Assembly (NCBI GenBank): GCA_945865815.1
Contig: CAMBFR010000020.1
Coordinates: forward strand, 1 to 43,142
DNA from: Candidatus Sulfopaludibacter sp. SbA3
Lineage (GTDB): Bacteria > Acidobacteriota > Terriglobia > 20CM-2-55-15
Reading direction: 5' to 3'
DNA length: 43,142 bases
Both the position numbers and the translations under genes were made by a program. The notes beneath the pieces were generated by a model that worked only from the letters and a program-made list of their open reading frames with translations, was not told the origin of the DNA and ran no database searches. Positions 8,105 to 26,187 of this stretch are shown here, piece after piece. The stretch's first letter is position 1. The number at the start of each line of letters is the position of its first letter.

Positions 8105-8172
8105 CGTGCACAGTCATAGACCGCGCCTACAGTGGAACATCGGACTGTAGGCGCGGTCTATAAACGTGCACA
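8105..8172. repeat. Palindromic element bounded by 8-bp direct repeats
   Basis: A 17-bp perfect inverted repeat (8117-8133 and 8144-8160, arm beginning TAGACCGCGCC, extendable by one A-T pair) encloses a 10-nt loop. CGTGCACA is present on both sides, at 8105-8112 and 8165-8172, like a target-site duplication around a 52-bp insert. It lies between the peroxiredoxin stop and the nnr start. It can be a miniature element, a terminator for the peroxiredoxin transcript, or both. There is no coding capacity. Confidence 0.75.
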
Positions 8173-8188: not shown

Positions 8189-8743
8189 TCAGTTGGCCTT
8201 TGACACTGCGGACAGGTCGGCAAGCAGCTTCTCTACCGGTATCAACTGACCCGTCGTGTTCTTCCAGATGAGCGTGCCCTGTTCGTTAATCAGGAAGTAG
8301 TAGCGCCGTGCGATTCTGTTTTCAGAATTCAGCGCTCCATAGGCCGTTATCACTTTCGCATCCACGTCGCTCAAGAAGATATTCTGGGCCTTCACCGTCT
8401 CCTTGAATTTCGCCTGCGATGGGGGAAGATCCCTGGAAATTCCGATGACTTCAATGTTCAGATCCACGAATTTCTGATGATTTTCACCGAACTCGGTGAA
8501 TTCTCGCGTTCAGCCAGCGGTGAAATCGGCGGGATAAAAGGTGATCAATACTCTTTTCTTACCGGCAAAGTCTTTCATCCCGAGCGTATCTTTCGGATTC
8601 AAGCCTTTGGGAAGCTCGAAATCGGGTGGTTTGGTTCCCACTCCCGGCGTGTTATCGATGCCCGGCACAACAAGCTGCCCGTAGAGGGCAGCACTCATCG
8701 ACAGCACCAGAAGAGGAAGAAGCACAAGAGAGATTCTATTCAT
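8189..8743 (-). CDS. Exported peroxiredoxin with in-frame UGA (probable selenocysteine) at the peroxidatic site
   Basis: Read through one TGA (8510-8512, codon 78), this frame encodes a 184-residue BCP/AhpC-type peroxiredoxin. Residues 1-22 are a signal peptide (LVLLPLLVLSMSAALYG). The thioredoxin-fold part runs PPDFELP, RVLITFYPADFTAG, then the UGA and TREFTEFGENHQKF, IEVIGISRD and ARRYYFLINEQG. The active-site motif PxxxTxxC is present as PADFTAG plus UGA, so UGA replaces exactly the peroxidatic Cys; the conserved Arg is in ARRYYF. No other cysteine exists, which suggests a 1-Sec enzyme. A 7-bp hairpin begins 9 nt after the UGA. AAGGAG lies 5 nt before the ATG at 8743. An ordinary caller would split it into 77- and 92-residue pieces. 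A Cys-to-stop mutation is the alternative, but the hairpin and intact downstream frame argue against it. Confidence 0.82.
8483..8500 (-). promoter_or_regulatory. Candidate bacterial SECIS hairpin
   Basis: In the mRNA, UUCACCG pairs perfectly with CGGUGAA around the loop AGUU. The loop starts 16 nt after the UGA, and G is its second base. Known bacterial SECIS elements have a short apical loop with G among its first two bases, about 16-37 nt after the UGA, so this sits at the near edge of the permitted range. SelB binding is inferred, not shown. Confidence 0.68.
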
Positions 8744-8820
8744 GTTTACTCCTTCGGCAGCTAGCCGTGAAACGGGTAGATGATATGCTAAGCTTCCCCT
8801 CCGTTCAAAGGCGGATAAAG

Positions 8821-25251: not shown

Positions 25252-26187
25252 ATGATCATTCCGCGGCTCTCCTGGTTTTCGACGGCCTGCCTGCTCGTTG
25301 CTGTCTACTGCACTTCCTGCACGCAGGAGCAGCAACAGCCCCAGCCTCAGGCCACACCCCGGCGCATCATCTCGGTGGTTCCGTCCGCTACGGAGATGCT
25401 TTTCGCATTTGGCGCCGGCGAACGCGTTATCGCAGTCGGCGACTACGACCACTTTCCTCCGGAAGTCAACGCGAAGGAGAGGATCGGCGGGCTGCTCAAT
25501 CCCAATATCGAGAAGATCATCGAGCTGAAACCCGATCTTGTGATTGCTTACGGCAGCCAGGATGTCCTGGGCGAAAGGTTGGAGGGTCTCGGCATCCGGC
25601 TGCATCCTTTCACGCACGGAAACGTCGAGCACACGCTCCGGTACATGCTGGAATTGGGCCGGACGCTTCAGGTGGAAGACGCCGCTCAGGAAGTTGTGAC
25701 CGGAATTCGAAAGTCTTTCGAAGAACTTCGCGCCCAGGCGCCGGCAGTACGGCCGAAAGTGATGCTCCTGCACAACCGCGAAGCCGGAACATTGGGATCT
25801 GTATACAGCATCGGCTCCCAGGCATTTCAGCACGATCTGATTGCCATCGCGGGCGGGGACAACATTTTTGGCGATGTGGACAAGGAGGTTCTCCAGCCGT
25901 CACTGGAGGAAATCATCAGCCGCGCGCCGGATGTGATCATCGAAACCATGCCGGCCCCGCTTGACGAGGAACAAGCCCGGGAGCGAAAAAACGACTGGTC
26001 GAAGTTGCCGTTGCCTGCCGTCCTGAACGATCGAGTCTATGTCGTGGCTGAAGATTCCTTGTTGGTCCCCGGGCCAAGGCTGGGCGTGGCAGCCCGGCGG
26101 CTGGGCGAAATTATTCGGAATTCCGGGGACAGACTCCGAATTCTGCACTTCAGGAATTCGGAGTCTGTCCCCGGAATTCCCCGATAA
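25252..26187 (+). CDS. BtuF/FhuD-like substrate-binding lipoprotein
   Basis: A 311-residue periplasmic-binding protein of the helical-backbone type (PF01497-like). Residues 1-23 are an export signal, ending in two cysteines (VYCTSC); Cys23 is the likelier lipid site. The mature part has RIISVVPSATEMLFAFGAGERVIAVGDYDHFPPEV near its start, NIEKIIELKPDLVIAYGSQ, and DLIAIAGGDNIFGDV with SRAPDVIIETMP, all typical of cobalamin or ferric-siderophore receptors. No permease or ATPase gene is nearby. The last 24 codons lie within a palindrome that also encodes the end of the convergent decarboxylase, so the C-terminus (after EIIRN) is probably foreign to the family. Confidence 0.9.
   Translation: MIIPRLSWFSTACLLVAVYCTSCTQEQQQPQPQATPRRIISVVPSATEMLFAFGAGERVIAVGDYDHFPPEVNAKERIGGLLNPNIEKIIELKPDLVIAYGSQDVLGERLEGLGIRLHPFTHGNVEHTLRYMLELGRTLQVEDAAQEVVTGIRKSFEELRAQAPAVRPKVMLLHNREAGTLGSVYSIGSQAFQHDLIAIAGGDNIFGDVDKEVLQPSLEEIISRAPDVIIETMPAPLDEEQARERKNDWSKLPLPAVLNDRVYVVAEDSLLVPGPRLGVAARRLGEIIRNSGDRLRILHFRNSESVPGIPR
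26117..26180. repeat. Large GGGGACAGAC-type palindrome
   Basis: Two 27-nt arms, 26117-26143 and 26154-26180, are perfect inverted repeats around a 10-nt loop. The left arm contains CCGGGGACAGACTCCG. It spans the 3' ends of two convergent genes and encodes the C-termini of both. The stem would be a strong bidirectional terminator. The core is close to that of the palindrome at 34372-34433 and the fragment at 1-10, suggesting a dispersed REP-like family. Confidence 0.9.

Follow-up and report, generated by a model that had tools for sequence, protein, structure and literature searches.

Gene locus and in-frame UGA

The window, meaning the whole 43,142-nucleotide stretch of DNA that was analysed, carries an AhpC/TSA-type peroxiredoxin gene on its minus strand, a strand that the original prediction did not name. 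The gene is flanked by a divergent class-III aminotransferase gene and by nnrD (NAD(P)H-hydrate repair), with no adjoining reductant gene. Its frame holds one UGA before the terminal stop (Table 1), and the Pfam AhpC-TSA match (PF00578; residues 35–160, 3.1e-27) of the read-through product spans this codon. The active-site motif of that product reads P71-ADF-T75-AG-U78, placing the UGA at the catalytic position of PxxxTxxC, and its 184 residues include no Cys. The continuous frame on either side of the TGA, the catalytic placement and the lack of cysteine all stand as first described. Elsewhere UGA acts as an ordinary stop, ending several clear genes of the window.

Table 1. Features of the peroxiredoxin locus, in window coordinates
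Feature	Positions	Strand	Details
Sec-peroxiredoxin gene, AhpC/TSA	8189–8743	minus	184 residues, Sec at 78, stop codon TGA
Start codon ATG	8743–8741	minus	
Final stop TGA	8191–8189	minus	
In-frame UGA, codon 78, predicted to be read as selenocysteine at the peroxidatic position	8512–8510	minus	Aligned UGA in L019–L025 and L028–L030; TGC in L026, L027 and L051
AAGGAG, Shine-Dalgarno-like, 5 bases upstream of ATG	8749–8754	minus	Direct sequence reading
Codons of the PxxxTxx part of the motif, P71 to G77, directly before U78	8512–8533	minus	T75 invariant in 26 homologues
SECIS-type hairpin, 7 bp, loop AGUU	8483–8500	minus	Covariation in 5/7 pairs; energy; absent in Cys homologues
Probable signal peptide, residues 1–22, mature start near Q23	8678–8743	minus	Inferred from hydropathy, invariant Q23 and model helix

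Conservation of the UGA, the hairpin and the locus

Homologues occur in all 61 genomes searched; an alignment-based scan recovered relatives, whereas a single-sequence scan of the genome contigs found none. Those relatives that bear a name come from Acidobacteriota metagenome assemblies, and the closest carries the label gp5. Within the same family, seven genomes (G002–G008; loci L019–L025, 53–76% identity) carry a UGA that aligns precisely with codon 78, the Sec copy of G006 running off its contig, while TGC occupies this codon in G001, G010 and a second gene of G006. Outside the family, many homologues have UGA here and others TGC or TGT, so that the alternation of UGA and Cys that had been proposed as a check is indeed present among relatives. 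In the tree, L026, L027 and L051, the three close homologues with Cys, cluster together (support 100/98) and lie at other loci, which speaks against simple Sec-to-Cys swaps at this locus and makes them look like a separate lineage. The tree over 26 rows needs four Sec/Cys changes.

The order aminotransferase–peroxiredoxin–nnrD is shared by seven genomes, namely this one, G002, G003, G004, G005, G007 and G008; in G006 the aminotransferase neighbour is kept. In G009 and G010 the peroxiredoxin gene is missing and its two neighbours lie 35–65 bases apart, which makes for a natural comparison: identical neighbours, with or without the gene between them. In G001, of the same genus, nnrD begins 36 bases from a contig end; selA was not found in this 81% complete genome.

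The gene end also carries palindromes. Between the peroxiredoxin stop and nnrD, positions 8116–8161 form an inverted repeat of 18 perfect bp, or about 28 bp with interruptions, that folds at -48 kcal/mol (z -8.8). A long palindrome lies 3′ of the Sec-peroxiredoxin gene in nearly every relative, and those at the same place are of unrelated sequence (36 bp in G004, 29 bp in G008, about 50 bp in G003, 12 bp in G002 and G005); G009 and G010 show none at that place. Because the arm of the G003 palindrome, GGCGCTTCGCGCCACCCC, is present in 386 copies in its genome, it seems that distinct REP- or MITE-like palindromes have landed at this gene end again and again. A second long perfect inverted repeat in the window, at 26117–26180 (27 bp with a 10-base loop; ATTCCGGGGACAGACTCCGAATTC...), is probably an interspersed palindromic element too.

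Just past the UGA, the predicted hairpin UUCACCG-AGUU-CGGUGAA was reproduced as originally drawn, its loop starting 16 nt after the UGA with G as the second loop base. Published bSECIS rules call for a loop of 3–9 nt, a stem of 4–16 bp, a G among the first two loop bases, a spacing of 16–37 nt and an energy of -7.5 kcal/mol or lower (PMC13188914). This hairpin, with its AGUU loop, 7 bp, 16 nt and -9.5 kcal/mol, falls within every one of these limits, bearing out the earlier appeal to bacterial SECIS rules. The 24-nt hairpin gives z -4.3, while the 51-nt fold by itself is unexceptional (z -0.86); the evidence for the hairpin therefore comes from covariation and from synonymous-codon shuffling, where an equally good, rule-abiding hairpin arose in 0.9% of shuffles. 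Across nine distinct Sec sequences from two families, 90.5% of hairpin cells are paired, against 24–51% in slid controls, double-sided changes occur in five of the seven pairs, and none of 500 shuffles reached the covariation score. Family f8, for example, has the stem CUCUCUG/CAGAGAG with a GGUU loop; in L021 and L025 the stem is just 5 bp. As the original prediction expected, the hairpin follows the UGA: it is found in every close Sec homologue and not in the three close Cys homologues, which form at most three pairs at that place. An Rfam SECIS_1 (RF00031) search gave no match here, and none in any control genome either, so that its silence is uninformative.

The coding sequence is constrained on both sides of the UGA. 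Specifically, pN/pS before and after it is 0.24 and 0.29 against L019, 0.20 and 0.30 against L020, and 0.33 and 0.25 against L021, so purifying selection is similarly strong on either side. The downstream frame is kept in relatives, the reverse of the loss that had been named as counter-evidence. In addition, five of the six invariant residues in codons 79–86 are written with one and the same codon in all eight rows; outside that stretch this holds for 5 of 55 (Fisher p 2e-4).

Predicted decoding of the UGA as selenocysteine

The genome (4.34 Mb in 193 contigs, 98% complete) contains all four Sec-insertion genes whose search had been proposed: selA, selB, the tRNA-Sec gene selC with anticodon UCA, and selD, which has an in-frame UGA of its own. 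In a metagenome-type assembly, a lone TGA as the one interruption of a peroxiredoxin frame could in principle be a nonsense mutation in a pseudogene or an assembly error for TGC or TGT, yet the chance of this is close to nil, given TGA at the same codon in seven other genomes, a covarying SECIS hairpin and selection on the downstream part, which a truncated gene would not keep. Equally negligible is the reading of the UGA as a real stop with separate or truncated products: UGA does normally serve as a stop in this genome, and long-ORF lists return the upstream or downstream half alone, but termination would cost the active site, the frame runs on without a break and is conserved to the same degree before and after the UGA, and all Sec genes are present. 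Insertion of another amino acid, Cys or Trp, through a general code change or a suppressor is very improbable too, if by a hair less so; homologues do have Cys at this position, but UGA terminates ordinary genes here, and the covarying hairpin together with the complete Sec machinery points to Sec.

The recurrence of the same UGA and hairpin in relatives places the observation far beyond chance. At the level of sequence, a selenoprotein gene with Sec at the peroxidatic position is confirmed, and sequence alone could hardly make read-through of the UGA as selenocysteine more secure. The original reading of a selenoprotein peroxiredoxin is supported overall, and those of its proposed checks that were run came out in its favour. 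Standard gene callers break the gene at the UGA, leaving two pieces that are of no use; with many such genes in the class, envelope peroxide defence in these bacteria is probably under-annotated.

The predicted model adopts a peroxiredoxin fold (pLDDT 90.7), and the top structural matches to it in the PDB are peroxiredoxins (Bcp, AhpC and Prx). T75, R147 and U/C78 are invariant over 26 homologues. The chain contains neither a resolving Cys nor a second Sec, and none of the eight family Sec rows has any Cys, in agreement with the proposed 1-Sec type and a predicted mature chain without cysteine.

The N-terminus runs from MNR through a hydrophobic stretch (hydropathy 2.4 over 14 residues) and a small residue to Q23, which is invariant, and the model places a low-confidence helix at residues 8–22. 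The hydropathy and Q23 would fit the originally proposed action outside the cytoplasm, the putative export being read from the N-terminal sequence. The accompanying remark that export would be unusual is doubtful within this class, where most Sec homologues sampled have a hydrophobic, signal-peptide-like N-terminus. An uncleaved N-terminal anchor, leaving the selenoprotein membrane-bound rather than free in the periplasm, is conceivable though on balance improbable; the single hydrophobic segment of about 15 residues and the helix at 8–22 would suit it, but the small residue before the invariant Gln at 22/23 fits cleavage. Less likely again is a selenoprotein of peroxiredoxin fold whose main role is peroxide sensing or thiol oxidation rather than bulk peroxide removal. 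The lack of a resolving Cys and of an assigned reductant leans that way, but the catalytic T75 and R147 are invariant and the peroxiredoxin family is peroxidatic.

Taken as a whole, the explanation that we favour, a probably exported, single-domain selenoprotein peroxiredoxin made by hairpin- and SelB-dependent Sec insertion and presumably reduced from outside, has a probability of roughly 95%. Insertion of Sec by SelB at such hairpins is established for bacteria. Here, on comparative evidence, the hairpin just past the UGA would recruit SelB with Sec-tRNA, leading to selenocysteine at codon 78. The general secretion pathway would then carry the product across the membrane with removal of the signal peptide, and the mature chain would fold as a single-domain peroxiredoxin. 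Following the family mechanism, the U78 selenolate, activated by T75 and R147, would attack H2O2 or organic peroxides, generating a selenenic acid. Because the chain has no resolving cysteine, this acid would have to be reduced by an external agent, which may be a thiol, hydrosulfide or a thioredoxin-like partner protein. Hydrosulfide has been proposed as reductant for 1-Cys enzymes of another subfamily (PMC12697902); for this Sec-peroxiredoxin it is speculation. A wider and tentative proposal, clearly less probable than its opposite, is that exported cysteine-free 1-Sec peroxiredoxins guard the cell envelope of these Acidobacteriota across the class, using a small-molecule reductant such as hydrosulfide and not a thioredoxin partner. 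With one selenium as its sole redox atom, apparently outside the cytoplasm, the protein is well suited to finding out which agent reduces a selenenic acid in that setting.

Relation to known selenoproteins

Other selenoprotein genes seen in this genome are selD, L048, L049 and L050. L048 (G000:C10) and L049 (G000:C77) are two further TxxU peroxiredoxins with a peroxidatic UGA and no signal peptide. L050 (G000:C105:5000-7400, minus strand) encodes a UxxC Prx-like selenoprotein (FYRTHNUGFCRTQLGELQ) with a hydrophobic N-terminus, carries the hairpin GCAGCTC-GGC-GAGCTGC past its UGA and has relatives in G001, G004, G006, G007 and G008. Among class relatives, L037, L038, L043 and L045 are adjoining pairs of Sec-peroxiredoxin genes with a UGA in each, in most cases followed 23 nt later by a hairpin whose three loop bases are GGC or GGA.

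That Sec-containing peroxiredoxins exist, as the original prediction stated, is borne out by the literature: those with PxxxTxxU have been catalogued as a family (PMC13188914), with 43 such genes in the Sargasso Sea set (PMC1088965), and by its sequence the gene is a new member of this TxxU family. The apparently exported, cysteine-free version appears common to many relatives and hardly described. No description of exported Prx selenoproteins was found in the literature searched, which took in few subscription papers, and the silence there on a signal-peptide-like N-terminus for Prx is weak evidence of novelty.

The closest known system is the Prx selenoprotein family PF00578/COG1225 (TxxU), with PrxU of Eubacterium acidaminophilum (PMC13188914, PMC9312934; NF040737), which shares the Pfam domain, the peroxidatic Sec and PxxxTxxU. 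Unlike PrxU, the window protein has a probable signal peptide and no cysteine in its chain, and it scores 47.2 bits against NF040737, far below the curated cut-off of 270 bits. The Prx-like thiol:disulfide oxidoreductase selenoproteins (PMC13188914) belong to the same fold family but carry UxxC, where the window protein has TxxU and no Cys. The thiol peroxidase Prx-SUH (NF045827) is also a Sec peroxiredoxin but is catalogued with CxxU (PMC13188914), the window protein scoring 27 bits against a cut-off of 298. Among the closest solved folds are the Bcp/PrxQ-type and AhpE 1-Cys peroxiredoxins (3hjp, 3drn, 4x0x), AhpE being a 1-Cys enzyme; at about 24–30% identity, these enzymes carry Cys where the window protein has Sec.
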